This document shows positions 4,290 to 36,165 of a stretch of DNA of 39,559 nt, piece after piece (the first letter of the stretch is position 1; the number at the start of each line of letters is the position of its first letter). The notes under the pieces are model-generated. The model did no database searches, was not told where the DNA came from, and saw only the letters and a program-made list of their open reading frames with translations. The stretch lies in NCBI GenBank assembly GCA_017463865.1, contig JAFTOI010000021.1, positions 1 through 39,559 on the forward strand, given 5' to 3'. The stretch comes from Clostridia bacterium. GTDB taxonomy: Bacteria; Bacillota; Clostridia; Oscillospirales; CAG-272. The translations under genes and the position numbers were made by a program.

Positions 4290-4522
4290 TCCGCGCTCCC
4301 GCGCGGGCCGGGGGCGGACCAACTCAAACGCCGAAGTTCCTCCCCCGGCACCCCCTCTCCTTGGCTGGGTTTTGCCACCCCCTACAAGTTGACGAGAAAC
4401 TTCGCGCAGCCAAGGAGGTTGGGTGGGGGTGAGCCGCCGCAGGCGGCAGGGGGAGGGAAGGGAACTTTGGCGTCTGAGATGGTCCCTTCCTTCCCCTACC
4501 CGCGCGGGAGCGCGGAAAAATC
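4290..4522. repeat. Element A locus 1: divergent pair of structured repeats
   Basis: Two element A copies lie back to back. The reverse-strand copy has P3 (CGCGCTCCCGCGCG) near 4291-4304, the loop ACTCAAACGCCGAAGTT at 4322-4338, and its AGCCAAGG box read as CCTTGGCT near 4359-4366. The forward copy has AGCCAAGG near 4408, P1 GCCGCC/GGCGGC near 4433-4447, P2 arms GGGAGGGAAGGG (4451-4462) and CCCTTCCTTCCC (4484-4495), loop ACTTTGGCGTCTGAGATGGT, and P3 CGCGC-GGGA-GCGCG near 4501-4514 followed by an A-run. It fills the whole gap between the MBOAT gene and copA, so no ordinary terminator or promoter is separately visible. Confidence 0.85.
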
Positions 4523-4578
4523 CGATCAAACCAAACAATTCACCCCCTCGCGCAAGCGAGCAAAGAAAGGCCCACACC

Positions 4579-7077
4579 ATGAAACTCCGCTTCCAAGTCA
4601 AAGGCATGACCTGCGCCTCCTGCTCAGCCCACGTCGAGCACGCGGCGTGCGGCGTCGCGGGGACGCGCGAGGTCAGCGTATCCCTGCTCACCGACTCGCT
4701 CTCCCTCACGGTCGACGATGCCGACGCCCCCCGCGTCCGCCGCGAGATCGTCGCCGCCGTCAAAAAGGCCGGCTACACCGCCATCCCCGAGGGCGAGGCC
4801 GACGCAGGACAGGCTCTGCCCGCCGCCGACAAAAAGGAGGACTCCCCCCTCCCCACCCTCATCGCCTCGGCCATCCTCACCGCTCTGCTCATGACCGTCT
4901 CGATGGGCCCCATGCTGGGGCTCTCCATCCCCTTCTTTGACGGTGTGGAGAACGCCATTCCCTACGCCTTCACCCAGCTCCTGCTGACCATCCCCGTCCT
5001 CTACCTCAACCGCAAATTCTTCACCTCAGGCTTCGCCGCCCTCGCCCGCCGCGCCCCCAACATGGACTCGCTGGTCGCCATCGGCGCCACCGCCTCGGTG
5101 GCCTACGGCATCTTCGCCATCTATGCCATCGGCTACGCCCAGGGCGACGGAGACACCGCCACCGTTCACCACTGGCTCCACTCGCTCTACTTCGAGTCGG
5201 CGGCCACCATCCTCACCCTTGTCTCGCTTGGCAAGTTCCTCGAGCACCGCGCCCGCCGCAAGTCGGCCGATGCCGTCCGGGCGCTGGCCGCACTCTCCCC
5301 CGACACCGCATGGGTTGAGCGGGACGGCGACTGGGTCGAGGTCCCGGTGGGGGACATCGCCATCGGCGACCGCGTCCGCGTCCGCGCTGGTGAGCTGATC
5401 CCCGTCGACGGCATCGTCGCCGAGGGCGACGTTTCGGTGGACGAATCCGCCCTCTCCGGCGAGTCGATGCCGGTCGACCACAGCGTCGGCGACCGCCTCT
5501 CGGCCGCCTGCACCATCGTCGACGGCGCGGCGGTCTTCACCGCCGACCGCGTCGGCAGCGACACGGCCCTCGCCCGCATCCTCCGCCTGCTCGAGGATGC
5601 CGCCGCCTCCAAGGCCCCCGTCGCCCGCCTCGCTGACCGCATCAGCCGCGTCTTCGTCCCCGCCGTCATCGCTGTCTCGATCGTCACCGCCATCGTCTGG
5701 CTCATCGCCGGACAGCCCGACACCGCCTTCCGCTGCGCCGTGTCGGTGCTGGTCATTTCCTGCCCCTGCGCGCTGGGACTGGCGACCCCCACTGCCATCA
5801 TGGTGGGCACCGGCCGGGGCGCCCAGCTGGGCATCCTCATCAAGTCGGCCGAGGCGCTGGAGACCCTCCACGCCGTCGACTGTATCCTGCTCGACAAGAC
5901 CGGCACCCTCACCGAGGGCAAGCCAGCCGTGACCGACGTCATCCCCCTCGGCGCCCGCCCGGCTGACGAATGCCTCGCCCTCGCGGCGGCGCTGGAAGCC
6001 TCCTCCACCCACCCGCTGGCCCGCGCCATTACCACGGCGGCCGGCACCTGCCCCGCCGAAGGCGCGGTGCAGGGTTTCAAAAATGAGGTTGGCCGCGGCG
6101 TCGGCGGCACGGTAAACGGCCTGGCCTGCTTCGTCGGCAAGCCGGGCGCGGCGGCGGTCGAGATCAACCCCGCCAAGCTTGCCCCCTTGGAGGCCGCTGG
6201 TAAGACGGTCGTCTGCCTCACCGTTGACGGCGAGGCGGCGGCGCTGATCGCCATCTCGGACAAGATCAAGCCCGACTCAGCCGCCGCCGTGGCGGCGCTG
6301 AAGGCGGCAAAGGTGCGCCCGGTGATGCTGACCGGCGACAACCCGTCGACGGCGGCAGCCGTCGCGGCGGCCGTGGGCATCGCTCCCGCCGATGTACATG
6401 CCTCCCTCCTGCCCGAGCAGAAGGAAGCAGCAGTCGCTGCCGAGACGGCGGCGCACACCACCGCCATGGTGGGCGACGGCATCAACGACGCCCCGGCGCT
6501 CACCCGCGCATCGGTGGGCATCGCGATCGGCGCGGGCACCGAGGTGGCCATCGACGCCGCCGACGTGGTGCTGACCCGCTCGACCCTCTGCGACGCGGTG
6601 AACGCCATCGCGCTCTCCCGCGCGACCTTCGCGAACATTCGCCAGAACCTCTTCTGGGCGCTCTTCTACAACGCCATCGGCATCCCGCTGGCGGCCGGCG
6701 TGCTGATCCCGGCCTTTGACCTGGCGCTCAACCCGATGTTTGCGGCAGCGGCAATGAGCCTGTCATCGGTCTGTGTGGTGACCAACGCCCTCCGCCTGCG
6801 CCGCTTCAAACCCAAAATCGAAACCAAACCCAACGAAAGTGAGGATACCAATATGCTTTTCGGCAAAACTAAGACCCAAACCACCACCCTCAAGGTCTCG
6901 GGCATGGCCTGCGGCCACTGCGCCGCCCGCGTCGAGCAGGCCGTCGCCGCCATCCGCGGCGCCACCGCCAAAGTCGACCTCGCCTCCGCCACCGTCACCA
7001 TCGAAGCCCCCGAAAAAGTCACCCGCGAACAGCTCGTGGACGCGATTGAGAAGGCTGGGTACAAGGTCGAGGGGTAA
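4579..7077 (+). CDS. copA: Copper-translocating P1B-type ATPase with a CopZ-like C-terminal domain
   Basis: An 832-aa P-type ATPase exporting Cu(I) from the cytoplasm. The N-terminal heavy-metal-associated domain has GMTCASC with CxxC at residues 12-15. The membrane-embedded CPC motif is at 395-397 in SCPCALGLATP. The phosphorylated Asp439 lies in DKTGTLTEG, TGDN starts at 585, and the hinge GDGINDAP at 632. The start at 4579 was chosen because homology begins there; the frame stays open upstream only by reading through repeat DNA. Unusually, residues 759-832 form a complete second metal-binding domain (GMACGHC) of chaperone size that begins with Met and has its own ribosome-site-like sequence, so it may also be made as a free CopZ. 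Confidence 0.95.
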   Translation: MKLRFQVKGMTCASCSAHVEHAACGVAGTREVSVSLLTDSLSLTVDDADAPRVRREIVAAVKKAGYTAIPEGEADAGQALPAADKKEDSPLPTLIASAILTALLMTVSMGPMLGLSIPFFDGVENAIPYAFTQLLLTIPVLYLNRKFFTSGFAALARRAPNMDSLVAIGATASVAYGIFAIYAIGYAQGDGDTATVHHWLHSLYFESAATILTLVSLGKFLEHRARRKSADAVRALAALSPDTAWVERDGDWVEVPVGDIAIGDRVRVRAGELIPVDGIVAEGDVSVDESALSGESMPVDHSVGDRLSAACTIVDGAAVFTADRVGSDTALARILRLLEDAAASKAPVARLADRISRVFVPAVIAVSIVTAIVWLIAGQPDTAFRCAVSVLVISCPCALGLATPTAIMVGTGRGAQLGILIKSAEALETLHAVDCILLDKTGTLTEGKPAVTDVIPLGARPADECLALAAALEASSTHPLARAITTAAGTCPAEGAVQGFKNEVGRGVGGTVNGLACFVGKPGAAAVEINPAKLAPLEAAGKTVVCLTVDGEAAALIAISDKIKPDSAAAVAALKAAKVRPVMLTGDNPSTAAAVAAAVGIAPADVHASLLPEQKEAAVAAETAAHTTAMVGDGINDAPALTRASVGIAIGAGTEVAIDAADVVLTRSTLCDAVNAIALSRATFANIRQNLFWALFYNAIGIPLAAGVLIPAFDLALNPMFAAAAMSLSSVCVVTNALRLRRFKPKIETKPNESEDTNMLFGKTKTQTTTLKVSGMACGHCAARVEQAVAAIRGATAKVDLASATVTIEAPEKVTREQLVDAIEKAGYKVEG
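6839..6855 (+). promoter_or_regulatory. Internal ribosome site and start for a CopZ-like product inside copA
   Basis: GTGAGGA at 6839-6845 is seven bases before an in-frame ATG at 6853. Translation from that ATG would give a 74-aa protein containing only the GMACGHC metal-binding domain, the normal size of a CopZ chaperone. Whether ribosomes use it is not shown; it may be the fossil of a gene fusion. Confidence 0.5.
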
Positions 7078-7079
7078 GA

Positions 7080-7215
7080 CCTTGGGACGCTGTCCCAAAC
7101 CCTGCTTAGGCCCCTTTTCGAGAAAAGGGGCCTAAGAACCCCGAAAAGCTTCCCAACACGCTTTTTGACAACACTTCCTGCTAAGCTGGCTAAGGGGTGA
7201 AGAAGCGCACAGCTC
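7080..7215 (+). repeat. Element B copy 1, in sense orientation after copA
   Basis: It begins a few bases after the copA stop. Hairpin TTGGGAC/GTCCCAA (about 7083-7099) comes first, then a long hairpin TTAGGCCCCTTTT / GAAAAGGGGCCTAA (about 7106-7136). A conserved stretch follows, including TTGACAACACTTCCTGCTAA and GCTGGC, ending AAGCGCACAGC near 7215. The same order, with different but still complementary stems, occurs on the other strand at 28719-28852. It could serve as the 3' end or terminator of the copA mRNA, though no T-run follows the hairpins. Confidence 0.8.
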
Positions 7216-7332
7216 ATATCTGCGCATCAGCCAGTAGCCGACGAAGTCGGCGACCGGTCAGCTCACCAGGCAACATTGGCGAAACAAATCTTGCCCATAG
7301 GGGGCGCTACCCCCGAAGGGGGTAGCAGCCTT
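7216..7332 (+). other. Intergenic spacer with two hairpins between elements B and A
   Basis: No gene. It holds a small hairpin GCCGAC/GTCGGC near 7238-7252 and a stronger one GCTACCCCC-GAA-GGGGGTAGC near 7306-7326. In the second composite (28.7 kb) elements B and A touch directly, so this 117-bp piece is extra and may be an insertion into the composite. Confidence 0.55.
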
Positions 7333-7453
7333 AGCCAAGGAGGGTGAGGTGGGGTGAATTGTCGCCGGAAGGCGACAAGAGGGGAGGAGAGGGAAACTTC
7401 GGCGTCTGAGATGGTACCCTCTCCTCCCCTCCTCGCCCGGGAGGGCGAAAAAA
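7333..7453 (+). repeat. Element A locus 2
   Basis: Box AGCCAAGG at 7333, P1 TTGTCGCC-GGAA-GGCGACAA at 7359-7378, P2 arms GGGGAGGAGAGGG (7381-7393) and CCCTCTCCTCCCC (7417-7429), conserved loop CTTCGGCGTCTGAGATGGT ending at 7415, and P3 CGCCC-GGGA-GGGCG at 7434-7447 followed by six A. This is one of the most complete copies. It lies about 100 bp upstream of rbfA. Confidence 0.88.
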
Positions 7454-7551
7454 CGAGCGCAAACTATCGCCCAAACCGCACTAACCCCACGTTCAACGCA
7501 AGTATTTACAATTTGTTCATAACTATATTTACCATATCTGGAGGAAATCCC

Positions 7552-7950
7552 ATGGCTGGATACAGACGAGCCCGCATCAATGACGCGATGCAGGCCGAGC
7601 TTTCAACAATCTTCCGCGAGATCAAGGATCCCCGCATCTCGGGTGCATTCCTGACCGTCACCGCCTGCGACGTCACCCCCGACCTGAAGTTCGCCAAGGT
7701 GTACTTTTCGTTCATGCAGGGCGAAGTGAAGGAGATCATGCGCGGCCTTTCCGCCGCCTCTCCCTACATTCGCCGACGCATTGCCGAGTCGCTGAACCTG
7801 CGCATTACCCCCGAATTTACCTTTGTTCACGACGTTTCTCTCGCCCACGGCGCGCACATCGCCACCCTGCTCAATCAGATCGAGCGCGAGCGGGCAGAGA
7901 AGACTCCCACCGACACGGAGGGTAAAAATGATGCAGACACTGACGCTTGA
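7552..7950 (+). CDS. rbfA: 30S ribosome-binding factor RbfA
   Basis: A 132-aa KH-type cytoplasmic protein that binds immature 30S subunits and helps form the 16S 5' end. Hallmarks: an N-terminal helix ending EIKDPRI, then a strand around DLKFAKVYFSF, then RRRIAESLNLRITPEFTFVHD. The ATG at 7552 was chosen because GGAGG lies nine bases upstream and homology starts there; a longer reading from 7354 would translate repeat DNA. The last 23 bases overlap the DHH phosphoesterase gene. rbfA followed by an nrnA-type gene is common in Firmicutes, but here infB and the nusA cluster are absent upstream, replaced by repeat elements and copA. Confidence 0.95.
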   Translation: MAGYRRARINDAMQAELSTIFREIKDPRISGAFLTVTACDVTPDLKFAKVYFSFMQGEVKEIMRGLSAASPYIRRRIAESLNLRITPEFTFVHDVSLAHGAHIATLLNQIERERAEKTPTDTEGKNDADTDA

Positions 7951-8941
7951 GCAAACCGCCGACCGCCTCGCCGGCCTTGAGCAGGTGCTGATCCTCTTCC
8001 ACGCCCGTCCCGACGGCGACGCAGTGGGCTCCGCCTTCGCCCTGCGCCGCGCACTGACCCTGCGCGGCTGCGACGCCTGGTGCGTCTGCCCCCATGAATT
8101 GCCCAACAGACTGCGCTTTTTAGTTGAATTAGATGGCGAAGATGCACAAAATTCGGTCCTCGCCGATGCAATTCCCGAGCGATTTACCGACGCACCGGTG
8201 GTCAGCGTTGATACCGCCGCCCCCGGCCAGGCAGGCGATCTGGCCGAGCAGCTTCTGCCCCGCTGTGTGCTGATGATTGACCACCACGCCTCCGGCACCC
8301 CTTACGCCGACAGCTATATCCGCCCCGAGGCGGCCGCGGCGGGGGAGGTGCTCTATCCTATTCTGATGCGTCTGCGCGAGGGCGACGGGCCGCTTGATCC
8401 CATCGTGGCGGCGCGGCTGTTCGCGGCCATTGCGTCGGACACGGGCTGCTTCAAGTTCTCGAACGCCGGCGCGGCGACGCACCGGGCGGCGGCTGACCTG
8501 CTGGACGCCGGATTTGCGTCGGTCATCGAGCCGGCCGAGATCACGCGGCGGTTGTTCGACACCAAAACGCCGGGCGTACTGCGCGGCGAGCAGACGGCGC
8601 TGCGCAATCTGCGGCTGTTTGCCGACGGACGGATCGCCGTGACGACGCTGAGCCATGCCGAGCGCGAGGCCGAAGGGCTTCGTCCCGAGGACACCGAGAC
8701 GATGATTGAGGCGATCCGGGTGCTGGCCGGCTGCGAGATCGCGGCGACGATGAAGCAGGCCGACGACACGCCGCTGTGGCGGGTCTCGCTGCGCTCGACG
8801 GGGCCGAATGTGGCCGAGGTTGCGGCGCAGTTCGGGGGCGGCGGGCACCACCGAGCGGCCGGATGTGCCGTCGAAGCAGAGACGGCGGATGCCGCTGTTG
8901 CGGCGTTGGTTGAGAAGCTGCAGGCGGCATTGGGGGCGTGA
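7928..8941 (+). CDS. nrnA: DHH/DHHA1 phosphoesterase, NrnA-like oligoribonuclease/pAp phosphatase
   Basis: About 337 aa. The DHH domain shows HARPDGDAVGS near residues 26-36 and the DHH-type motif IDHHASGTPYAD near residue 118. The C-terminal DHHA1 domain ends with the nucleic-acid-binding GGGGHHRAAGC. NrnA-type enzymes degrade very short RNAs and/or pAp. GGAGGG lies inside the end of rbfA, five to eight bases before two adjacent ATGs (7928 and 7931), so either could be the start. The overlap with rbfA indicates translational coupling. Which activity dominates cannot be read from sequence. Confidence 0.9.
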   Translation: MMQTLTLEQTADRLAGLEQVLILFHARPDGDAVGSAFALRRALTLRGCDAWCVCPHELPNRLRFLVELDGEDAQNSVLADAIPERFTDAPVVSVDTAAPGQAGDLAEQLLPRCVLMIDHHASGTPYADSYIRPEAAAAGEVLYPILMRLREGDGPLDPIVAARLFAAIASDTGCFKFSNAGAATHRAAADLLDAGFASVIEPAEITRRLFDTKTPGVLRGEQTALRNLRLFADGRIAVTTLSHAEREAEGLRPEDTETMIEAIRVLAGCEIAATMKQADDTPLWRVSLRSTGPNVAEVAAQFGGGGHHRAAGCAVEAETADAAVAALVEKLQAALGA

Positions 8942-9002
8942 ATAAAAAGCACCCGCATGAGGATTAGACTACTTCCCAGCGATTAGACAGGAAAAGAAGC
9001 GC

Positions 9003-9302
9003 CTATCGCAGAATAACGTGAAACCACGCGGCCTTACTCCTGATATCATCAGGAGTAAGGCCGTTTTCTATGTTGATACGTTCGAAGTGATAGAAATGCA
9101 TATCAGCTGCCGCAGCCTTGTGGAGTACGAGCCCCACGGTCGCCTTTTGTTTTGCAGGCATATTTCTGATTGTATCGGTCACAAGTGTAGTGGTCATATT
9201 GTTGCCAATACGCCACGATGAGATTATCCGTTCGTACAGATCGATGACGGCTCACAGATAGACGACCCCGTTCGCCGTGCGGCCGTCACCCAGAAGGGAT
9301 TG
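9003..9302 (-). pseudogene. Remnant of an IS3-family (IS150-like) transposase, OrfB
   Basis: Reading leftward from about 9300: a piece resembling the DDE-domain strand (ANGVVYL, stop, AVIDLYERIISSW), then a continuous run to MTTTLVTDTIRNM and VGLVLH. It then jumps directly to FYHFERINIENGLTP and RSKAA, which is the normal C-terminal end of these transposases. So there is one in-frame TGA, probably replacing a Cys or similar codon, and an internal deletion of roughly 40-60 residues that removed the catalytic Asp/Glu region. The N-terminal half is missing. It is not functional. No terminal inverted repeats are recognisable. Confidence 0.7.
9029..9066 (+). terminator. Palindrome acting as likely terminator after nrnA
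   Basis: CGGCCTTACTCCTGAT at 9029-9044 pairs with ATCAGGAGTAAGGCCG at 9047-9062, followed by TTTTC. The palindrome lies inside the C-terminal codons of the transposase remnant, so transposon sequence may now be serving as the nrnA terminator. Confidence 0.6.
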
Positions 9303-9325
9303 GGATGTTCCTGCGGGGATCGTGA

Positions 9326-9357
9326 AAGGAAAAGGACACGGCATGCCGTGTCCTTTT
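9326..9357 (-). terminator. Terminator of the first oxidoreductase gene
   Basis: AAAAGGACACGGCAT and its complement ATGCCGTGTCCTTTT form a near-perfect palindrome centred at about 9343, with a T-rich tail on the minus strand. It lies about 35 nt beyond the stop of the minus-strand gene ending at 9390. Confidence 0.8.
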
Positions 9358-9389
9358 CTCTTTGGGTTTCCCGAATATATTACGTCACC

Positions 9390-10397: not shown

Positions 10398-10462
10398 GGG
10401 GGTGTCCTCCTTTGGGGTGTAGTCATGCATGTGTTGTATTGCGGGAAATACGAAACAACGCT

Positions 10463-10532: not shown

Positions 10533-10549
10533 ACGTTTTTTGTTCAGCG

Positions 10550-10596: not shown

Positions 10597-10626
10597 CCTG
10601 TTCAACGCATCTTTGTGCGGTTTATT

Positions 10627-13263
10627 TTACAGCTTGCCGAGGGCTGCCTCGATGCCGGCCAGGGTGTCCTTGTACTTCTCCAGCTTCACGCGCTCGCCCT
10701 CAACCACAGCGGCGGGAGCCTTCGCGACAAAGCCGGCGTTGGCCAGCTTGCCCTCAAGGCGCTTGATCTCGCCGGCGACGCGGTCGCGCTCGCCGGTGAG
10801 GCGCTTGCGTTCGGCGTCAAGGTCGATGATGTCGGCAAGCGGCAGGTAGATGCTGGCCGAGTCGGTGACCAGCTGGACGCAGGCGTCGGGCGACGGGAAG
10901 CCGTCGGCTGTCGGTGCCACGATGACCTCGGAGGCCGAGGCAAGCTTCTGGAAGAAGACGGCCGTCTTGTCGTTGTAGCTGTCGTGGAAGGTGGTCGCGA
11001 TATAGACCTTCGCGCGGCGGGAGGGAGCGACGTTCATCTCATTGCGGCGGGTGCGGATGGCGCGGATGGCGGCGATGACGCGCTCCATCTTGGCGGCCTC
11101 GTCCTCGTAGTTGAAGACGTCGTCGTAGACGGGGTAGTCGCTGATCATGATGCTCTCATCGGCATGCGGCAGCGAGAGGTAGATCTCCTCGGTGATGAAG
11201 GGCATGAAGGGATGCAGCAGCTTCAGCGTCTGGGTCAGCACGTAGGCGATGACCTTCTGCGCGGTGATATTTTCGGGGGTGTCCTTGGCATTCAGGCGAA
11301 CCTTGGCCAGCTCGATGTACCAGTCGCAGAAGATGTCCCAGATGAAGTCGTAGAGGGCCGAGAGGGCGACGCCGACCTCGAACTTGTTGAGGGCTGCGGT
11401 GACGGTGGCCGTCACGGCGTTGAGGCGGGTCAGGATCCACTTGTCCTCGAGGGCGAGGTCGGCGGGGTCGGGCAGGGTGACCTCGTCGATGGTGAGGTTC
11501 ATGCGGACAAAACGGGATGCGTTCCAGAGCTTGTTCGCGAAGTTGCGGGCCGACTCGATCTTCTCATCCGAGAAGCGCATATCGTTTCCGGGCGAGTTGC
11601 CGGTGGCGAGGGCAAAGCGGAGGGCGTCGGCCCCGTACTGGTCGATGATCTCCAGCGGGTCGATGCCGTTGCCGAGCGACTTGGACATCTTGCGGCCCTG
11701 CGCGTCGCGGACGAGGCCGTGGATGAAGACATGCGAGAAGGGCTTCTCGTCCATATGCTCGAGGCCCGAGAAGATCATGCGGGAGACCCAGAAGGTAATG
11801 ATGTCGTAGCCGGTGACGAGGACGCTGGTGGGATAATACTTGGCCAGATCCTCGGTCTTGTCGGGCCAGCCGAGGGTCGAGAAGGGCCAGAGGGCGGAGG
11901 AGAACCAGGTGTCCAGCACATCCTCTTCCTGACGGACAGGCGCGCCGCACTTGGGGCAGACGGTGATGTCTTCCTTGGAAACGGTCATCTCGCCGCAGGT
12001 GTCGCAGTAGAAGGCGGGGATGCGGTGACCCCACCACAGCTGGCGGGAGATGCACCAGTCGAGGATGTTGTTCATCCAGTTGAAGTAGTTCTTCGAGAAG
12101 CGCTCGGGCACGAACTTGATCGAGCCGTTCTCGACGGCCTCAATGGCGGGCTCAGCGAGGGGCTTCATCTTGACAAACCACTGGTCGGAGGTCAGGGGCT
12201 CGACGGTGGTGCCGCAGCGGTAGCAGGTGCCGACGTTGTGGTCGTGGGGCTCGGTCTTGACCAGGTAGCCCTCGGCCTCGAGGTCAGCGACCAGGGCCTT
12301 GCGGCATTCGTAGCGATCCATGCCCTCATACTTGCCGGCATAGGCGTTCATGGTGGCGTCGTCGTTCATGACCTTGATCTGCTCCAGGTTGTGGCGCTGG
12401 CCGACCAGGAAGTCGTTGGGGTCGTGGGCGGGGGTGATCTTGACGCAGCCGGTACCGAAGCCGATCTCGACGTAGTCATCGGCGATGACGGGGATCTCAC
12501 GGCCGACGATGGGGAGGATCAGCGTCTTGCCGATCAGGTGCTTCATGGCCTCATCCTCGGGGTTGACGGCGACAGCGGTGTCGCCGAACATGGTCTCGGG
12601 ACGGGTGGTGGCCACGGTGACATAGCCGTCCTCGCCCTTGATGGGGTACTTGATGTGCCAGAATGCGCCGGGCTGGTCCTTGTACTCGACCTCGGCGTCC
12701 GAGAGGGCGGTCAGACAGTGGGGGCACCAGTTGATGATGCGGTGGCCGCGGTAGATCAGGCCCTTATCGTAGAGGTTGACGAAGACCTCGCGGACGGCGC
12801 GGGAGCAGCCCTCGTCCATGGTGAAGCGTTCACGGCTCCAGTCGCAGGAGGAGCCGAGCTTTTTCAGCTGGCTGATGATGCGGTTGCCGTACTGGTGTTT
12901 CCAGTCCCAGACGCGCTCGAGGAACTTCTCGCGGCCGAGGTCGTAGCGGGTAATGCCCTCGGTCTTGCGCAGATGCTCCTCGACCTTGATCTGGGTCGCG
13001 ATGCCGGCGTGGTCGGTGCCGGGCACCCAGAGGGTGTTGAAGCCCTGCATGCGCTTGTAGCGGACGAGAATGTCCTGCAGGGTCTCGTCAAGGGCGTGGC
13101 CCATGTGGAGCTGGCCGGTGACGTTCGGGGGCGGAATCACGATGGAAAAGGTGGGGCGGTTGTCGGCGGGGTCGGGCGTGAAGTAGCCCTTCTCGCACCA
13201 GTTCGCGTAGATGCGATCCTCGAATTCCGCCGGGCTGTAGGTTTTCGGCAGTTCGTGTGTCAT
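10627..13263 (-). CDS. valS: Valyl-tRNA synthetase
   Basis: An 878-aa class I aminoacyl-tRNA synthetase charging tRNA-Val. The HIGH signature is HMGH at residues 53-56 in [20 protein letters not shown] lies at about residue 525 in [14 protein letters not shown]. The editing domain occupies roughly 200-400, with the family's [15 protein letters not shown]. Zn-binding CxxC pairs are seen around YCDTCGEM and CPKCGAP. The C-terminal coiled-coil arm spans about 810-878 ([20 protein letters not shown]). Length is normal. AAGGAGAACC-type sequence precedes the ATG. Expression is governed by the T-box leader immediately upstream. Very long open frames on the opposite strand are only shadows of the GC-rich codon pattern. 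Confidence 0.98.
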
Positions 13264-13299: not shown

Positions 13300-13583
13300 C
13301 TGTGGAAAAAATAAAGCCCCCACGCCCTGAGCGATTGCTCTCAGGGCGCGGAGGCGCGGTACCACCTGAGTTCGTGCTGACACGGTCAGCGACGCACTTT
13401 AGACAAGCGATGCTTGTCACGCATAACGGGCGCTGCCGTTGATCCTTATTTGGCGTGCCGTTCGGGATCACCGCTCGGAGGGGACGTTCGGCCTGGGGCT
13501 GCCGCGGCACTTGCACTGTCTGCCGCTCGCTGGGGGCGCCGGGGGAGGCGTACTCTTCCTCGTCATCGCGTTTGGGATAGATA
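13300..13583 (-). promoter_or_regulatory. T-box riboswitch leader of valS
   Basis: On the minus strand the T-box signature AGGTGGTACCGCG (13355-13367) is followed by terminator stem CGCCCTGA/TCAGGGCG (13323-13348) and a T-rich tract (about 13305-13312). Upstream are small hairpins GCTGAC/GTCAGC (13376-13390) and GACAAGC/GCTTGTC (13402-13418), plus a stem I region with GAGGAAGAGTA near 13550-13565. In this class, uncharged tRNA pairs with the specifier codon and with the T-box bulge, which favours the antiterminator and lets valS be transcribed. A GTC codon at 13483-13485 is a possible valine specifier; I cannot place it with certainty. The leader is about 320 nt from transcription start to ATG. 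Confidence 0.93.
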
Positions 13584-18775: not shown

Positions 18776-18890
18776 AGCCAAGGAGGTGAGGAGGGTGAAT
18801 GCCCGCCCACGGCGGGCAGAGGGAGGAGAGGGAACTTCGGCGTTTGAGATGGTCCCTCTCCTCCCTCACCGCGCGGGCGCGCGGAAAGAT
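18776..18890 (+). repeat. Element A locus 3
   Basis: Box AGCCAAGG at 18776, P1 GCCCGCC-CAC-GGCGGGC at 18801-18817, P2 left arm GGGAGGAGAGGG (18821-18832) with right arm CCCTCTCCTCCC, loop ACTTCGGCGTTTGAGATGGT ending at 18853, and P3 CGCGC-GGG-CGCGCG around 18870-18885 followed by GGAAAG. It is antisense to the two flanking minus-strand genes and touches the stop codon of the oxidoreductase at 18892. Confidence 0.88.
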
Positions 18891-18891
18891 C

Positions 18892-21679: not shown

Positions 21680-21826
21680 CAAGATTTTGATTGAGCGAAT
21701 CGTTCGGGGAAGGGGCGGGGAGGAAACTTCGGCATAGCCAAGGAAGGTGGGGGGTGTTGGGGGCGGAAAACTTCGGCGTTTGAGATGATTTCCGCCCCCC
21801 AACTCGCCCGGAAGGGCGAAAAAAGT
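21680..21826 (+). repeat. Element A locus 4, with a partial second copy
   Basis: Main copy: AGCCAAGG at 21736, no P1, P2 arms GTTGGGGGCGGAAA and TTTCCGCCCCCCAAC, loop ACTTCGGCGTTTGAGATGAT (one base off the usual core), and P3 CGCCC-GGAA-GGGCG with an A-run to about 21824. Immediately before it (21680-21733) is a fragment: TTTTGATTGA, then CGTTCGG, then the arm GGGGCGGGGAGGAA and the first part of the loop. That fragment resembles the outer flank of locus 6 but with the loop in the opposite orientation. Confidence 0.8.
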
Positions 21827-26144: not shown

Positions 26145-26385
26145 TTTTCCGCGCTCCCGCGCGTGCCGGAGGGGGGACCATCTCAAACGCCGAGAGTTTC
26201 CGATTTGGCAAAGCCAAATCTCGAGGTTGGCAAGCCAACCTGGCCCCCAACCCCCGGCACCACCCCCTCCTTGGCTGGCCGCGCTGAGCCAAGGAAGGTG
26301 GGGTGAATGCCCGCCGACGGCGGGCAGAGGGGAGGGGCGGAAAACTACGGCGTTTGAGTTGGTGTCCGCCCCTCCCCTTCTTACG
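26145..26385. repeat. Element A locus 5: divergent pair with extra hairpins
   Basis: Reverse copy: P3 CGCGCTCCCGCGCG near 26151-26164, loop ATCTCAAACGCCGAGAGTTT near 26179-26198, box CCTTGGCT near 26269. Between its loop and far P2 arm sit two additional perfect hairpins: GATTTGGC/GCCAAATC and GGTTGGC/GCCAACC. Forward copy: AGCCAAGG near 26287, P1 GCCCGCC-GAC-GGCGGGC near 26309-26325, P2 arms GGGGAGGGGCGGA and TCCGCCCCTCCCC, loop CTACGGCGTTTGAGTTGGT, no P3. It fills the gap between galK and the membrane-protein gene. Confidence 0.82.
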
Positions 26386-28586: not shown

Positions 28587-28719
28587 TCTCTTGGTTTTGA
28601 TTGATCTTATTGTTCGGTAAGGAGGGCGGGGAAGAACCATCTCAAACGCCGAAGTTTCTTCCCCGCCCTCTTCCTGCCCCCAAAGGGGGCAGGAATTCAC
28701 CCACCCTATTTCCTTGGCT
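28587..28719 (-). repeat. Element A locus 6
   Basis: On the minus strand: box AGCCAAGG at 28712-28719, P1 TTCCTGCCCCC-TTT-GGGGGCAGGAA at 28671-28695, P2 arms GAGGGCGGGGAAGAA and TTCTTCCCCGCCCTC (28622-28670), and loop AAACTTCGGCGTTTGAGATGG. P3 is absent; instead the end is CCGAACAATAAGATCAATCA, shared with the fragment at locus 4. It is joined directly to element B copy 2, making a complete B-A composite. Confidence 0.87.
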
Positions 28720-30468: not shown

Positions 30469-30497
30469 GGGATACCTCCCGGATGGATTCTGGGACT

Positions 30498-30526
30498 ATT
30501 ATACCATGGTTTCGGGGGAATTGCAA
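30498..30526 (-). promoter_or_regulatory. Promoter of the DUF1934-holA unit
   Basis: On the minus strand TTGCAA (30521-30526), 17-nt spacer, perfect TATAAT (30498-30503), about 30 nt before the start codon. Confidence 0.85.
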
Positions 30527-30566
30527 GGGGGAGCTGCGGTCGGGCTGGGGTAACCGCAGCTCTCCC
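30527..30566. other. Long hairpin between two divergent promoters
   Basis: GGGGGAGCTGCGGT at 30527-30540 pairs with ACCGCAGCTCTCCC at 30553-30566 with one mismatch. It lies exactly between the promoter at 30498-30526 and the opposite one at 30575-30603. No T tail, so it is not a terminator; it may bind a protein or insulate the promoters. Confidence 0.5.
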
Positions 30567-30574
30567 TTCACTGC

Positions 30575-30603
30575 TTGACACCGTGTGTATTTTATGCTAT
30601 ATT
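30575..30603 (+). promoter_or_regulatory. Promoter of the lipoprotein gene
   Basis: TTGACA at 30575-30580, 17-nt spacer, TATATT at 30598-30603 (overlapping ATTATAAT). About 70 nt before the start codon. Confidence 0.82.
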
Positions 30604-30670
30604 ATAATCACTGATTAAGCGGTAAGGAAAACTTTTACGTCAGCGGACATTGGGGAGGAAGCCTATTCAT

Positions 30671-31444: not shown

Positions 31445-31445
31445 G

Positions 31446-31483
31446 AATAAGCCGGCACGGTCTTCCGTGCCGGCTTATTTTTT
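31446..31483 (+). terminator. Rho-independent terminator of the lipoprotein gene
   Basis: AAGCCGGCACGG pairs perfectly with CCGTGCCGGCTT around TCTT, followed by ATTTTTTG. It starts two bases after the stop codon. Confidence 0.94.
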
Positions 31484-31536
31484 GAACTGCATCAACAAAG
31501 GGAGAGGTCTCCCTCTCCCTGCGGCGTGCGCTGCGG

Positions 31537-31785
31537 TCAGGCTTGGGCGGTGTACTTCTGCTTGAGGGCCGAGATCTTCTGCTGCTCGGCCTGCTCGGCG
31601 GGGTACCAGCCCTTGGCTGCCATCTTGGTGTGAATGGTGTCCTGCATGCAGAGCGACTCGGTCAGCGCCTGGTCGAAGACCTTGTGCACATTCGCGGTCG
31701 ACGACTCGATGGTGGCGTGCATATACAGGTCACACGCGCCCTTCTCGAGCAGAAGCAGGTTTTCCATCAGCTGCTTATCGTCCAT
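31537..31785 (-). CDS. CotF-family spore coat protein
   Basis: An 82-aa protein consisting of helical segments typical of the Coat_F family: LMENLLLLEKGACDLYMHATIES, then VHKVFDQALTESLCMQDTIHTKMAAKGWYP. CotF proteins are assembled into the spore coat, so the organism probably sporulates. TAAGGAGGAACGATC precedes the ATG, where the TAA is the stop of the upstream 57-aa gene; the two are tightly linked. Confidence 0.9.
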   Translation of the reverse strand: MDDKQLMENLLLLEKGACDLYMHATIESSTANVHKVFDQALTESLCMQDTIHTKMAAKGWYPAEQAEQQKISALKQKYTAQA

Positions 31786-31797
31786 GATCGTTCCTCC

Positions 31798-31971
31798 TTA
31801 CAGTAAGCCGTAAAAACTGGTGTAGAGCTGCTGGTTCTTGGCGGCCAGCTGCTCAACGTAAGCCTTGAGCTCGCTGTCCTGGAGCTTGGACGCCGTCTCG
31901 CGGCACTGCGCGACGAAGTATTGCGCGTGGCCGAGGGCGTCTTCGATATAGAGAAGTTCTTTGGTTGACAT
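31798..31971 (-). CDS. Small spore-coat-associated protein, partner of CotF
   Basis: A 57-aa protein: MSTKELLYIEDALGHAQYFV, then a helix QCRETASKLQDSELKAYVEQ, then AAKNQQLYTSFYGLL. Short proteins of this form, ending in a Phe-Tyr-x-Leu-Leu tail, commonly precede CotF genes in Clostridia. The ribosome site GGAGGTGAT three bases before ATG is near-perfect, and its TAA stop is immediately followed by the GGAGG of the CotF gene. Too short to be called by many gene finders. Confidence 0.88.
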   Translation of the reverse strand: MSTKELLYIEDALGHAQYFVAQCRETASKLQDSELKAYVEQLAAKNQQLYTSFYGLL

Positions 31972-32040
31972 GAGATCACCTCCGCGCTTAGTTTGTGCGG
32001 AGGTGACCGGCGTTATGCGGGTGGAAAAATTTTATTTTGC

Positions 32041-33651
32041 TCAGATGCCGCAGCCCAGCGCCACGGTGGTGTGCGCCGCATCGTCTGGCATGGCGATGAC
32101 CCCGGCGGCGAGCGCCTTTTTGAGCATCATGTCGCGCAGCTCGAAGGGATACATGATCGTCGCAAAATCTGAGGTATAGCCGTCGGGCAGATCGGCCGCT
32201 ACCACGGCTTCGTTGTCTTGCATAAAGCGATGGACAGCGATCTCGATCGCGAGCACATGAGGCAGCACCTCGGCATCGTAGACCTCGCGGCTGCAGGCCT
32301 GCTGGACCGCCGACGAGCCCTGCCGGAACACCGGGAAGGTGGGCAGATAGCCCCCCTCGACGCTGCGCAGATAGCCCCGCTCGGCCAGCCGCGCCAGAAT
32401 GTCGAGGTCGACTGCGCCGCTCCCCCGCAGGAATTTCTCCAGCGTGGCCGCTTCCGCGCCGACCAGATCCCCGCCGCAGCGGGCAGAGAGGCCGCCAATG
32501 CCGATCTTGTAGTCCTCCCACTGCAGGGTGTTATCATCCCCCGAGCCGTGCAGACCGACGCCGCTGAAGCCGGGATTGTAGTCCTCGTAGCCCACCAGCG
32601 TCCATCTGCCGCCACGCGGGCGTTCAGGCAGGGGCTTGCGCTCGCCGAACACCGCCACCTTGGCGTTCCAGATCGCCTCGTCGGTGATGCGCAGGAGGAG
32701 ATACCACCCCAGGTCTGGGAAATCTTGATACCCGCCCAGCGGCACCACGCCGGTGCGGTCGCGCTCGGTGCGGATGGCGGCCAGCGCCGCCTGGGCGTGG
32801 GGATAGATTTCGTCGGCCGTCTGCTTCATCGCGCCGAAGATCTTCTCCTGCGCCCTGCGGCTGAGGATGGGGAAGCCGGTGACATACCGCTCGCCCTCCC
32901 GGCGCAAAAGCTCGACGGCGCAGAGCTCCTCCACCGCGTCCTCCATGTAGGGCGCGGCGACGCCCAGCTCCATCGACAGGTCGGCGATGGTGCATGGGTT
33001 GCCGTAGGCCTCCAGTAAAATATTCTTGTTGAGCCGGCTCCCCAATTGCGTCCAGGGCGAGCCGTCGCGGCCGTCATTGCCGTTTTTCGTGAAGGTGATC
33101 TCCTCGGGTCTGTAGCTTCTCTTGCCAAATTCGCGTGCCATTTGCATGCCCTCCTTGAGTTTTTGTCGGGAGCGTGACAGCTTGGCCTTGACGGTGCCCA
33201 GCGGCAGGCCGAGCCGCGCCGCAATGTCCGAGAGACGCTCGTCGTCGAGGTAGTGGGCGACGATGATCTCGCGGCAGTCGCGGGCGGTAAAGGCCAGCTC
33301 GCGGCGCATCAGCGACAGCGTCTCGTCATGGATGAGCGCCGCCTCCACATCGCCGTCCGGATCAGCGAGAGGAAGGTCAGCGATATCCTCGATGGCGGTG
33401 CAGCTGCGGCTGCGGCGCCGGGCGTCGGCCCAAGCCGCAAAGCGGTTGTGCGCGATCTGCCAGACCCACGCCGGGAAGTGCGCGACCTCGGCACCGCTGC
33501 GCAGCGCGTCGACCACACAGAGCGCGATGTCGGCGGCCAGCTCCTCCGCCTCGGCGGAGTCGCCTGTCTTGCGCAGACAGAAGTAGTAGAGTTTGGCGGG
33601 ATATTCGGCGGCGAAGGCCGCCAGCTGTGCGTCGGTGCGCGTCGCGGACAT
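32041..33651 (-). CDS. ECF-type sigma factor fused to a large C-terminal domain
   Basis: A 536-aa protein. The first about 175 residues are a complete ECF sigma factor: region 2 around AEELAADIALCVVDALRSG with WQIAHNRFAAW, and region 4 with LSDIAARLGLPLGTVKAKLSRSRQKLKEG. Residues about 205-260 look like a winged helix (YGNPCTIADLSMELGVAAPYMEDAVEELCAVELL). The remaining about 270 residues hold no domain I recognise; they include GGYQDFPDLGWYLLLRITDEA. It is much longer than a normal ECF sigma factor, and no anti-sigma gene is adjacent, so the tail may replace it as a built-in sensor. AAAGGAGCTGACACCC precedes the ATG. Confidence 0.87.
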   Translation of the reverse strand: MSATRTDAQLAAFAAEYPAKLYYFCLRKTGDSAEAEELAADIALCVVDALRSGAEVAHFPAWVWQIAHNRFAAWADARRRSRSCTAIEDIADLPLADPDGDVEAALIHDETLSLMRRELAFTARDCREIIVAHYLDDERLSDIAARLGLPLGTVKAKLSRSRQKLKEGMQMAREFGKRSYRPEEITFTKNGNDGRDGSPWTQLGSRLNKNILLEAYGNPCTIADLSMELGVAAPYMEDAVEELCAVELLRREGERYVTGFPILSRRAQEKIFGAMKQTADEIYPHAQAALAAIRTERDRTGVVPLGGYQDFPDLGWYLLLRITDEAIWNAKVAVFGERKPLPERPRGGRWTLVGYEDYNPGFSGVGLHGSGDDNTLQWEDYKIGIGGLSARCGGDLVGAEAATLEKFLRGSGAVDLDILARLAERGYLRSVEGGYLPTFPVFRQGSSAVQQACSREVYDAEVLPHVLAIEIAVHRFMQDNEAVVAADLPDGYTSDFATIMYPFELRDMMLKKALAAGVIAMPDDAAHTTVALGCGI

Positions 33652-33671
33652 GGGTGTCAGCTCCTTTCGCT

Positions 33672-33703
33672 AAGATAGTGCGGAAAGGCGGCAAAAGGTT
33701 GCA
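33672..33703 (-). promoter_or_regulatory. Candidate autoregulatory ECF-type promoter
   Basis: On the minus strand TGCAACC is followed after about 15-17 bases by CGCACTATCTT. The AAC-containing -35 and the short -10 resemble ECF-sigma promoters rather than a SigA promoter, and no TTGACA/TATAAT pair is visible upstream of this gene. Autoregulation is a common ECF habit but is inferred here. Confidence 0.4.
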
Positions 33704-33744
33704 GGTGCGCGAAAATTTTTATCTTTCCCGGAAAAGCAGACGTC

Positions 33745-35187
33745 TCATTTCCGCCGGCCAACCGGCCCCAGTACCGATCCGACCGCGATGATCAGGATCA
33801 CCACAATCCCGATCGGCAGGATTACGCCGATGGGCAGTCCCTCCGCCTCGCCGATCGCGGGCGCGGTGCCGGCCGGCACCGTTGTCCCTGCCGTCGCCGG
33901 TGCGGCTGTCGTGACCGGCGCCTCCGTCGTGACCGGTGCGGCTGTCGTCTCGGGCGGCGCGGTGGTCTCGGGCTCGGGCGGGATCTGCTCGGCATAGGGG
34001 GTGATGTGCTCGAAGAAATCATTCACGCCTGGCGTGTCGTCGCCGACCGTGGTGCGCCAGAGGCCATATGCGCAGGGGCTGTAGGTCGTGATCTGTGCTG
34101 CCGCTGTGATGGGAGCGGCGGTGGTGCCCCGGATCCAGCGGGTGAACCACGTCCAGTGCTGGGAGTAGTGCTCGTTGTAGCCGAGGTTGGACACCTCAAA
34201 GGCTGTCTTGCCGCCGTAGAAATCGAGCGGCTTGTCCCAGTTCATGGTCACGGTGCGCTCGGGCCAGAGGTGGAGGTAGGTCTTGGGGACGTCCCACGTC
34301 CCCCACGCGGCGGCTGAGTCGGGATAGGCGGTCGGATCGGCCGATATTTCCAGCGCCGCCTGAAGCGCCGCCGTGTTGACGATGTGCGCGCCGTGGTTGT
34401 ACTCGCCGTTCACATCGTGGCCGATGACGACCTGCGGCCTGAAGCGGCGGATCTGCTCGACGGCGTAGGCGATGAAGTCATCCTCTTCATAGCCGCGCCC
34501 GGCGTAGATGGTGCGGGCGGCAGCGAGGGAGGTCGAATAGAGGTCAGGGAAGGGGCCGACGATGGGATAGTTCCGCACACCGACCGCCCAGAGGCCGTTT
34601 AGCTGCTCATGCGGGCGGTTGTGGGTGTCGAAGTGCTGGGTCATGTAGACCACCTGCGCGGCGAGGCCCCGGTCGATGCAGTCGGGGAGGATGCCGGCGA
34701 AGAAGAGATGCTCGTCGTCGCTGTGGGTCGAGAAGAGGAGCAGGTCGGCCTCAGCGTAAGCCGGCTGCCAGACCTGCACGCTGTCGGGCAGGTCGCCTGC
34801 CGACCAGGCCGAGCACTCGGCGATGACGGCACCGACGGGGAAGCTGAGCGTCAGGCCGCGGGCGGCGGCGGGCACCTCGACATATTCGTGGAGAAAACCG
34901 TGCTGGCCGGCGGCGAAGGTGATGCCGGTGTCGGTGGCGCACTGCCATTCGCCGGGTACTTTGTCGAAGACGAGGTAGACGCCCGCGATCTGGCTGCCGC
35001 CGGCGTCGACCGTCAGCGAGCCGCCGGCCGGGATGGCGAGGTAGGTGCTCTCCTTGCCATCAGCGAGGGGCGCGGTGGCCGCGCCGGAGGAGACAGTCAG
35101 GGTCACGGGCAGCTGCGCTGCCTCGGCAGCCGCCGGCAGGGCGAAGAGGGCGACGAGGAGGAGGAAAAGGGGGATGAATTTTCGCAT
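33745..35187 (-). CDS. Secreted, membrane-anchored PIG-L family deacetylase
   Basis: A 480-aa protein. A signal peptide (MRKFIPLFLLLVALFALPAAAEA) is followed by a beta-rich region to about 140. The PIG-L/LmbE domain begins at LLLFSTHSDDEHLFFAG with the metal motif HSDDEH at 155-160, and further metal ligands lie in GHDVNGEYNHGAH near residue 256. A Thr/Pro/Ala-rich linker (TTAPPETTAAPVTTEAP) at about 410-445 is followed by a C-terminal transmembrane anchor (VILPIGIVVILIIAVGSVLG). The family removes N-acetyl groups from GlcNAc-type sugars; the enzyme probably sits on the outer face of the membrane. AAAGGATCGAATC precedes the ATG. Confidence 0.92.
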   Translation of the reverse strand: MRKFIPLFLLLVALFALPAAAEAAQLPVTLTVSSGAATAPLADGKESTYLAIPAGGSLTVDAGGSQIAGVYLVFDKVPGEWQCATDTGITFAAGQHGFLHEYVEVPAAARGLTLSFPVGAVIAECSAWSAGDLPDSVQVWQPAYAEADLLLFSTHSDDEHLFFAGILPDCIDRGLAAQVVYMTQHFDTHNRPHEQLNGLWAVGVRNYPIVGPFPDLYSTSLAAARTIYAGRGYEEDDFIAYAVEQIRRFRPQVVIGHDVNGEYNHGAHIVNTAALQAALEISADPTAYPDSAAAWGTWDVPKTYLHLWPERTVTMNWDKPLDFYGGKTAFEVSNLGYNEHYSQHWTWFTRWIRGTTAAPITAAAQITTYSPCAYGLWRTTVGDDTPGVNDFFEHITPYAEQIPPEPETTAPPETTAAPVTTEAPVTTAAPATAGTTVPAGTAPAIGEAEGLPIGVILPIGIVVILIIAVGSVLGPVGRRK

Positions 35188-35208
35188 GATTCGATCCTTT
35201 GTATGTAG

Positions 35209-35730
35209 TCAGCGTCCCCGCAGGGTGGCGAGGGCGTCGCGGTAGTCGGGGAGCCAGCGCTCGATCTCGGCATAGAACGCCGCGCTGTGATCGTGGTGAC
35301 GCATGTGGGCGAGTTCGTGGACGATGACGTACTCGACGACGGCGTCGGGCCAGCGGAGGAGGTTGTACGACAGGCAGATGTGGCCATCGGCCGAGCAGGA
35401 ACCGAGGCGTTTTTCGGCAGATGTAATGCGCAGCGAGGCCGGCTCGAGCCCCATGCGGGCGGCCCAGGCGGCGAGGCGGGGCGGCAGCTCTGCCTCGGCG
35501 CGGGCGCGGAGGGTATCGGGGTCGGTGTCGGGCTGCGCGGCCTGCGCCTCGGCACGGCGGGCCTGGCGCGCGCGGGCAGAGGCGATCCACGCGGTCTTCG
35601 CTTCGACGAAGCGGGCGATTTCGCGCTCCGGCATGCGCCGGGGCGCGCGGACGACAAGCGTCCCGTCGGCCCTCACCTCAAGGGCGAGGGTGCGGCGGGA
35701 TGAGCGGATGACGGTATAGGGTTCAGTCAT
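35209..35730 (-). CDS. YgjP-like metallopeptidase (M48/WLM type)
   Basis: A 173-aa protein with the zinc motif HELAH at residues 138-142, continuing MRHHDHSAAFY. A preceding RLGSCSADGHICLSYNLLRWP matches the GSC-type stretch of the YgjP/DUF45 family. Family function is poorly known. The start at 35730 was chosen because the upstream gene's stop overlaps it by eight bases, which implies translational coupling; no strong ribosome site is seen. Confidence 0.92.
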   Translation of the reverse strand: MTEPYTVIRSSRRTLALEVRADGTLVVRAPRRMPEREIARFVEAKTAWIASARARQARRAEAQAAQPDTDPDTLRARAEAELPPRLAAWAARMGLEPASLRITSAEKRLGSCSADGHICLSYNLLRWPDAVVEYVIVHELAHMRHHDHSAAFYAEIERWLPDYRDALATLRGR

Positions 35731-35953
35731 CGAGCAGGTCGGCAATGGCGACAACGGCCAGCACAACGGCGGCGGCCTTGAGCAGAGGCGTGGCGATGTT
35801 CTGGTCGAATTTGAGGTTCACGAGGGGTGTATCGGCGCCCTTTTCGGGGTAGATGCCGACCTCGCCCTCGGCGCGGATGCGCAGCTCGGGGCGCGAGGAG
35901 TTGATGAGCCGCCGGGCGCGGCGGGCAAGGACGGTGAGGGGGTGACGGGTCAT
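35723..35953 (-). CDS. Small single-pass membrane protein of unknown function
   Basis: A 76-aa protein. A basic N-terminus (HPLTVLARRARRLINSSRPE) is followed by a short polar region and a C-terminal hydrophobic helix (LLKAAAVVLAVVAIADLL). AAAGGAGCCACACC precedes the ATG, and a consensus promoter lies just upstream, so it is the first gene of a unit with the YgjP-like metallopeptidase. No family recognised. Confidence 0.75.
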   Translation of the reverse strand: MTRHPLTVLARRARRLINSSRPELRIRAEGEVGIYPEKGADTPLVNLKFDQNIATPLLKAAAVVLAVVAIADLLDD

Positions 35954-35986
35954 GGTGTGGCTCCTTTGGGATGTTTGATTGACATC

Positions 35987-36015
35987 AGTATAGCAGATTG
36001 GGCGGGGGATTGCAA
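35987..36015 (-). promoter_or_regulatory. Promoter of the small membrane protein/metallopeptidase unit
   Basis: On the minus strand TTGCAA (36010-36015), 17-nt spacer, TATACT (35987-35992), about 33 nt before the start codon. Confidence 0.82.
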
Positions 36016-36052
36016 GGTTATCTTGTGAATTTATTCGTTTTTACGAGGCTTT

Positions 36053-36165
36053 CCGCCCTCCCGGGCGGTGAAGGGCGGGGAGGGACCATCTCAGACGCCG
36101 AAGTTTCCTCCCCGCCCTCGGAGGTCGCCATGGGCGACCTCCTCACCCACCCCACCTCCTTGGCT
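36053..36165 (-). repeat. Element A locus 7, directly after the PTS EIICB gene
   Basis: On the minus strand: box AGCCAAGG at 36158-36165, its first bases overlapping the TAG stop codon of the EIICB gene, P1 GAGGTCGCC-CAT-GGCGACCTC at about 36121-36141, P2 arms AGGGCGGGGAGGA and TCCCTCCCCGCCCT, loop ACTTCGGCGTCTGAGATGGT near 36085-36104, and P3 CCGCCC-GGGA-GGGCGG at 36053-36068 followed by AAAG. It is in sense orientation to the upstream gene and may shape the 3' end of the PTS mRNA. Confidence 0.88.

Follow-up and report, generated by a model that had tools for sequence, protein, structure and literature searches.

Dispersed intergenic repeats of gut Clostridia in which three co-varying segments suggest an encoded intrastrand DNA triplex

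Introduction

Repeats with the potential to fold a single DNA strand into a triplex have been described in Escherichia coli as PIT, boxC and TM-ECO elements (PMC4666352); stable triplex formation in vitro and a link to genome instability were reported by Holder et al. (2015) (PMC4666352), and the formation and relevance of intrastrand triplexes in cells have been in question since the description of PIT elements (PMC4666352). Such elements are characterized there as dispersed and intergenic, the third strand and both the purine and the pyrimidine arm of a purine-motif triplex being carried by a single strand, and as rich in G and C, present in tens of copies with large copy-number differences between relatives, and occurring as inverted pairs. 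Here, we describe a repeat family with these same properties from a 39,559-nucleotide (nt) stretch of Clostridia bacterium DNA (assembly GCA_017463865.1, contig JAFTOI010000021.1, positions 1 to 39,559), hereafter the window. Its copies combine an 8-nt box, a purine-rich segment, in part of the copies a connector hairpin (P1), a long stem (P2) closed by a near-invariant loop and often a 3′ hairpin (P3). The purine-rich segment is the mirror image of the P2 purine arm and varies together with both arms of the stem, which to our knowledge is the first case of three-strand covariation.

The family is a new one of the known kind, set apart by its architecture. The order of segments—third strand, purine arm, pyrimidine arm—is that of class I, while TM-ECO belongs to class II (pyrimidine arm, purine arm, third strand); unlike TM-ECO, the present elements possess a near-invariant loop of 21 nt, often a connector hairpin and an 8-nt box, have widely varying stems with three-way covariation, lie near terminators and occur in Clostridia rather than in Proteobacteria (PMC4666352). 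At the level of sequence they display what defines class I triplexes, namely three segments on one strand, G.G-C and A/T.A-T triads and antiparallel orientation, with the 21 nt between the purine and pyrimidine arms exceeding the loops of 1–6 nt admitted by the ITxF finder, a limit which belongs to the finder and is not a chemical requirement. ITxF would therefore not list the family as such (PMC4666352). The class II consensus of TM-ECO, CCCTCNCCC N3-6 GGGNGAGGG N3 GGGNGAGGG, had no exact match in the window and 232 loci, and in the open-access literature we found no report of these sequences and none of such a family under triplexes, mirror repeats or covariation.

Three-Strand Covariation

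The arrangement is most clearly seen in copy 3 of the window, which consists of the following parts:

7333..7340, +: box AGCCAAGG
7341..7356, +: third strand, mirroring the P2 purine arm in 16 of 16 positions by reading; the computed comparison covers the first 14, all of them matching
7359..7378, +: P1 hairpin, connector from the third strand to the purine arm
7379..7394, +: P2 purine arm
7395..7415, +: near-invariant loop AACTTCGGCGTYTGAGATGGT
7416..7431, +: P2 pyrimidine arm
7432..7453, +: P3 hairpin with GGGA loop, and a run of A

An earlier note on this DNA, made from the letters alone, had pointed to the hairpins; its description of the loop is corrected here to the 21 nt given above, and it had missed the spacer between box and hairpins. 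This spacer, purine-rich with scattered T, mirrors the P2 purine arm in a definite code: G over G-C, A or T over A-T and T over C-G. The test set comprised 126 of 178 copies, in which a box was present, the stem was 9 or more long with no more than a single mismatch and the box-to-arm distance was at least 8 nt; the third strand was not used in this choice. Within copies the third strand matched at 0.901, against 0.604 ± 0.012 when paired across copies (z = 25), and none of 1000 cross-copy shuffles reached the real value (shuffle maximum 0.644). The match persisted in 60 non-redundant copies (0.880 versus 0.578, z 19). Since the code came from copies of the source genome (G000; 48 contigs that add up to 1.91 Mb, completeness 67%; its copies are called own copies below), the 37 non-redundant copies from other genomes, some of the same genus, serve as an independent test, and gave z 13.8.

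The register is fixed, with offset 0 in 119 of 126 copies; thus the third strand begins directly behind the box, the distance from box to arm, third strand included, ranging from 8 to 59 nt. Over positions 1–11 an arm G is faced by G in 797 of 861 cases, an arm A by T in 146 and by A in 159 of 322, and an arm C by T in 58 of 74. Mirror identity (z 22.3) far exceeds direct identity (z 4.1), and 1160 of 1264 cells fit the purine motif versus 956 for a pyrimidine motif on the opposite strand. A scan of both strands of the window for triplex potential, made regardless of the loop, recovered four of the nine copies together with a single further place; four shuffles of one strand gave no match. Comparison of orthologous spacers tells the same on a smaller scale: L149 and L152 (L followed by a number denotes an analysed sequence locus, G with a number a genome), from two species of the genus, hold copies in corresponding positions whose stems differ in sequence but are paired in each, with P1 in one only, and in both a third-strand T stands over the arm C, as read from the sequences, though this C is shifted by one position. 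The pairs L090/L140 and L005/L049 likewise differ in their stems, and L018/L097 and L034/L035 have the same stem.

In antiparallel triplexes G binds on G:C and A or T on A:T, while T can sit on C:G (PMC10609763). The orientation, the code and the treatment of C interruptions fit this chemistry, and T over A or C is unsuited to a pyrimidine motif on the opposite strand; thus the + strand as DNA would be the encoded form. DNA is likewise indicated because in RNA the purine-motif triplex reportedly does not form (PMC4666352). Both the spacer and the nearly pure purine composition of the arms on one strand, the latter correctly pointed out in the earlier note, are explained by a third strand mirroring the purine arm in the purine-motif code. 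Judged from these sequences, the copies very probably encode an intrastrand purine-motif DNA triplex.

Two other accounts of the purine-rich segments may be weighed at this point. The elements may be plain mobile hairpins, similar to miniature inverted-repeat transposable elements (MITEs) or REP, with a triplex code that plays no part and stems from low-complexity, purine-rich sequence. Dispersal, inverted pairs, imperfect inverted ends and matching terminator-like flank hairpins at 16 of 35 sites (see below) would all agree with that, yet pairing across copies keeps composition and nevertheless scores 0.604 against 0.901, and T over C in 58 of 74 cases is not an effect of composition, which makes this account quite improbable. 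Alternatively, G tracts of the third strand and the purine arm, both of which are G-rich, could build a G-quadruplex; this structure needs neither a complementary pyrimidine arm nor in-register matching of A/T and T/C, and we consider it barely credible.

Stems and Pairing

Covariation of P2 was assessed in 88 diverse copies, picked from the 145 of 178 that had at least 8 of 12 pairs with G.T counted as a pair. In this set 91.5% of cells are paired, cells with double changes number 361 versus 102 ± 13 after shuffling, and the covariation score is 0.787 versus 0.293 in shuffled and at most 0.329 in slid alignments, so that the earlier observation of stems varying with pairing kept, beside a constant box and loop, is borne out. 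Without filtering, Watson-Crick pairing holds across the inner ten pairs for 615 of 700 cells in own copies and for 887 of 1080 in other genomes, where independent columns would give 410 and 535, respectively. Ten perfect inner pairs are found in 92 of 178 copies, while 43 copies contain a single mismatch (14 G.T, 9 A.C and 20 other).

P1 hairpins number 35 in own copies, seven of them being by sequence extra hairpins and not P1; complementarity of the six outermost pairs is complete (210 of 210 cases, against a shuffled average of 90), where only the difference from the shuffle counts because the hairpins had been selected as perfect stems. A P3-type 3′ hairpin of at least five pairs follows in 63 of 71 own copies, 45 of them with a GGGA loop, and in 54 of the 63 the loop is GGGA, GGAA, GAGA or GAAA.

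Covariation of this strength is what a functional RNA would show, either a small RNA or part of a 3′ untranslated region, with P1, P2 and P3 selected as RNA helices and the purine spacer being something else; a covariance model alone would indeed file the family as a new RNA, and stem covariation need not mean RNA. The P3-type loops just listed resemble RNA GNRA loops, the element strand agrees with the gene strand in 63 of 97 co-directional spacers, and in near-intact copies outside the source genome mismatches come near the RNA pattern (G.T 14 versus A.C 5). Taken over all 178 copies, however, mismatches of the inner ten pairs comprise 55 G.T versus 66 A.C, unlike those of 17 tRNAs from the same set of loci (16 G.T versus 3 A.C), and this lack of G.T bias argues, if not decisively, against a constraint acting on RNA alone; for near-intact copies the overall ratio is 20 to 13, and 6 to 8 among own copies. 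An RNA would also leave the mirror image in triplex code unexplained, given that such triplexes reportedly do not arise in RNA, and the elements occur in both orientations and as inverted pairs. No Rfam family matched the element above its gathering score, in line with the earlier note, which recognized no known RNA family; at E up to 10 only generic hairpin families, mostly of microRNA, appeared. A functional RNA is therefore disfavored as an explanation and seems unlikely to us, and the other option raised in the earlier note, a hairpin recognized by a protein, may hold in the form of single-stranded DNA; the interpretation offered there is thus partly supported, and the observation behind it is confirmed.

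Pairing could also be kept by mutation itself, template switching in the hairpin carrying changes from arm to arm. The perfect inner pairs in 92 of 178 copies, the random look of single mismatches in 43 copies and three orthologous sites with different and still paired stems agree with such a process. By reasoning, though, template switching produces inverted or direct repeats and not mirror repeats in a T-for-A, T-for-C code, and box and loop remain fixed; we hold this to be very improbable as the source of the pattern.

Arrangement of the Copies

The seven loci of the window listed in the earlier note are all borne out; they hold nine copies rather than seven, eight of them full (E ≤ 4.7e-12 in the covariance model) and one partial at 26174-26201, as 4290-4522 and 26145-26385 are inverted pairs with boxes facing each other. 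The plan thought to be shared by all loci holds for the box and for P2 with its loop, P1 and P3 being found only in part of them. The triplex comparisons refer to positions 4318, 4466, 7398, 18836, 21772, 26177, 26346, 28636 and 36085, in the order of copies 1 to 9. Apart from copy 3, the copies are as follows:

4290..4366, −: copy 1, without P1, inverted partner of copy 2; triplex match 8/11
4408..4522, +: copy 2, with P1; triplex match 12/13
18776..18890, +: copy 4, with P1; triplex match 13/14
21736..21826, +: copy 5, without P1; triplex match 10/12
26145..26276, −: copy 6, with two extra hairpins beside the loop, inverted partner of copy 7
26287..26385, +: copy 7, with P1 and without P3; triplex match 11/14
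28587..28719, −: copy 8, with P1 and without P3; triplex match 12/14
36053..36165, −: copy 9, with P1; triplex match 13/13

Immediately before the box of copy 5, a purine arm and half a loop (AACTTCGGC) occupy positions 21700-21735, resembling the remains of another, truncated copy joined to this one. Half loops in front of the box are frequent in the source genome, where 15 of 69 own copies have CTTYGG in the 16 nt that precede the box and none has it in a control window; the corresponding figures for other genomes are 4 of 112 versus 2 in the control. This CTTYGG may be an alternative pairing partner for the box. Two further hairpins between purine arm and loop were seen at 26145-26276 of the window as well as in L118, L122, L124, L129 and L143. 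A short-P2 subfamily (L025, L016, L084 and L100) has the connector GCGAAGC or GCGTAGC; d(GCGAAGC) is an unusually stable DNA mini-hairpin.

Distribution Among Genomes

A covariance model of P2 and loop (A1, R1) was built and used to scan the window and the genomes. The R1 genome scan scored at most 30 candidates per genome, and copy numbers are lower bounds. Distinct own copies with up to two loop changes number 69 to 71 in the stretches examined, depending on the filter. The exact loop occurs 55 times in the source genome, a reversed control pattern giving 0; across five genomes of one genus, the source genome first, the counts are 55, 8, 1, 5 and 4, and in none of the other 54 relatives searched was the exact loop found.

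With R1, 39 of 196 genomes of the family and 18 of 71 genera had a match at E ≤ 0.001, where the weaker ones may be chance hairpins; at E ≤ 1e-9 there were 18 genomes in 10 genera. At E ≤ 1e-6, 5 of 394 genomes of the order matched, including one that does not belong to the family. A scan of named genomes gave at least 102 stretches, and the titles listed, those of L021 and L031 aside, were metagenome-assembled genomes of Clostridia, Oscillospiraceae or Lachnospiraceae; the hosts, where named among the matches listed, were herbivores. In another genus (g77), queries holding a unit of ~143-148 bp gave 40 to 46 BLAST matches per genome in two genomes; some of these matches are incomplete or lie at contig ends, and a few fall on the flanks. 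L021, L031 and the overlapping near-identical viral contigs L111, L112, L114 and L115 have neither box nor stem and were excluded from counts; L008, overlapping L116, was left out of some counts, and one count also omitted copies near locus ends and repeated sequences. On L113 (10561-13944), a contig from a viral collection with phage-like open reading frames (ORFs) by eye, there are two exact loops and one degenerate loop.

When the box is taken as the starting point, an exact loop accompanies 53 of the 71 boxes in own loci; 15 had a loop with 1-3 changes and one a loop with 6; two had no loop, one of them at a contig end, and 1.7 chance boxes were expected. The own loci used here had themselves been retrieved through the loop.

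Genomic Surroundings and Dispersal

None of the genes predicted by our codon-usage script contains any of the 71 own copies, which agrees with the earlier remark that copies contain no gene. The copies are located between co-directional genes in 47 cases, between convergent genes in 14 and between divergent genes in 7, with 3 unassigned; the agreement of element and gene strand in 63 of 97 co-directional spacers, given above, is composed of 29/18, 7/7 and 27/9. Of the 30 g77 units that could be placed, 15 occupy convergent spacers and one a divergent spacer, 18 more being too near a locus end; all spacers of the g77 loci, unit-bearing ones included, comprise 24 convergent, 56 co-directional and 16 divergent. 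Orientation relative to replication, judged by GC skew, shows no link (positive in 31 of 69 own and 78 of 142 other copies). The family is a dispersed MITE/REP-like one, located near gene 3′ ends and terminators.

The g77 unit has imperfect inverted ends (by eye), often adjoining terminator-like hairpins. For 16 of 35 sites the hairpins on the two flanks matched each other beyond the 99% level of cross-site controls, nine of these matches being direct, six inverted and one a tie; some unit sites have different hairpins on the two sides and some are tandem. At the L037/L173 site the hairpin differs between two species and agrees on both sides within each. Composite units of the own genus in L138 and L122 lie inside terminator hairpins with an apparent 10-bp duplication (by eye); alignment of eight own composite units gave two with the 10-bp duplication, a less exact one (L133) and five that are not readable (by eye). 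Arrays of tandem hairpin-unit-hairpin-unit type, in which the same terminator-like hairpin is repeated, were noticed in L179 (1652-1961), L176 and L178. Among the orthologous pairs examined there was no clean empty site; the L037 site in G213 has one hairpin and no unit, its left flank missing.

In accord with the earlier note, no match to any known mobile family tested was obtained, while the manner of dispersal does resemble MITEs or BIMEs, so that the refutation named in that note, a REP/MITE family, applies in part. MITEs likewise are single units below 200 bp, and imperfect inverted ends and apparent flank duplications are seen in part of the present copies (PMC10969869); unlike for MITEs, no transposase was identified here, the core is alike across genera while the ends differ, and flank duplications are mostly terminator-like hairpins of variable length. 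The pneumococcal repeats BOX, RUP and SPRITE are, too, modular or terminator-like, gene-free and MITE-like interspersed repeats (PMC3049150); that source, as far as consulted, describes no triplex coding, they belong to another taxon, and it is by these descriptions that they are set apart. REP/BIME elements with their RAYT transposases also place short palindromes as inverted pairs in spacers, and the cognate Y1-type RAYT gene of the genome usually has the repeat at its flanks. Differing from them, Y1_Tnp is missing from the copy-rich genomes G121 (99% complete, at least 30 copies) and G174 (many copies), and RAYT/Y1 as the enzyme was rejected, Y1_Tnp being present in 15 of 29 genomes and in none of G000, G001, G002, G121 and G174.

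R1 had no match in 11 loci with RAYT-like genes. In L202, L203, L204, L205 and L208 the RAYT-like proteins contain short variable inserts (e.g., GAIHESP and GEGSPLPR), which look like translated GTAG-type REP sequences within the gene. Among ten further Y1_Tnp loci, a match was found in one, L194 (G209), with a copy ~280 bp from an IS200-type gene; it is not read as a link to a transposase because one such neighbor is about what chance would give (an estimate; 11 of the 21 loci are from copy-bearing genomes, and for the genomes of others no copies are recorded). Within positions 1-958 of L194 the IS200-type gene has an intact copy (910-958) on one side and, from base 1, a box-like inverted remnant on the other, as would result from entry of the insertion sequence into an inverted pair.

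Cas1-type integration, considered because units sit between duplicated palindromes, was rejected as well. None of 12 element-bearing genomes, some of them incomplete, yielded Cas1; the one genome that did is G061, for which the R1 scan gave no copy at E ≤ 1e-6. Y2 (IS91-type) was found in none of 16 genomes, and as the control genomes gave no match either this search is uninformative. A search for an autonomous partner by the left end returned 26, 22 and 1 places in G132, G174 and G213, respectively, with 3, 1 and 1 in controls; five places outside known units were inspected, of which three are decayed or solo ends, G132:C10 is chance-like and G213:C16 ambiguous, and no autonomous copy was among them.

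Discussion

The explanation that on the whole we find probable is that the repeats are DNA elements encoding an intrastrand triplex on their + strand. When the + strand becomes single-stranded, the purine and pyrimidine arms of P2 would form a hairpin, and the purine/T-rich segment behind the box would fold back antiparallel into its major groove via reverse-Hoogsteen triads, with P1, where present, bridging third strand and purine arm where the strand turns at the base. The box would come to lie beside the loop and could close the knot, as by inspection its GCCAAG can pair with CTT(C)GGC of the loop. The folded single strand would be read by a DNA-processing protein, most likely while the element is copied to new sites near terminators.

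Several points weigh against this explanation in whole or in part. The support for the triplex is of sequence level, and work on the related E. coli triplex repeat found neither a clear function nor support for stable triplex formation in vivo (PMC4666352). The code was derived from a few own copies before testing, the direct-repeat control is itself slightly positive, and copy 6 (26145..26276) has no simple P2, its stem length being 0. Box and loop hardly vary, which leaves the putative box-loop pairing without covariation support, and the invariance of the loop is partly by construction because nearly all copies were found through it. The near-RNA mismatch pattern of near-intact copies outside the source genome, described above, belongs here too, and an enzyme or autonomous partner was not found in the Y1, Cas1 and end-pattern searches.

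As for function, a folded single-strand mark that is read during copying is our first choice; a block to replication or transcription at gene ends, or a selfish unstable repeat, may serve as alternatives. The recognition role of the folded strand is put forward with reserve. More tentative still is the full proposal, in which the triplex closed by box-loop pairing would be a selected working structure of single-stranded chromosomal DNA—the mark by which a mobile repeat is recognized and copied beside terminators—and three-strand covariation over several genera would record that selection. It would be evolutionary evidence that triplex DNA structures are kept in living cells. As the co-variation of the three strands in the triad code extends to many copies from several genera, a direct test could draw on natural variants and on predicted rescue mutants.

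Additional Features

Some other features were observed in the window. A T-box leader (13339-13575, −) lies upstream of a valyl-tRNA synthetase-type gene at 10627-13263. At 20-420 there are two copies of 5S rRNA separated by ~90 bases and followed by a tRNA, and an ORF of 536 amino acids (32041-33651, −) has matches to sigma-70 regions 2 and 4 confined to its first third.

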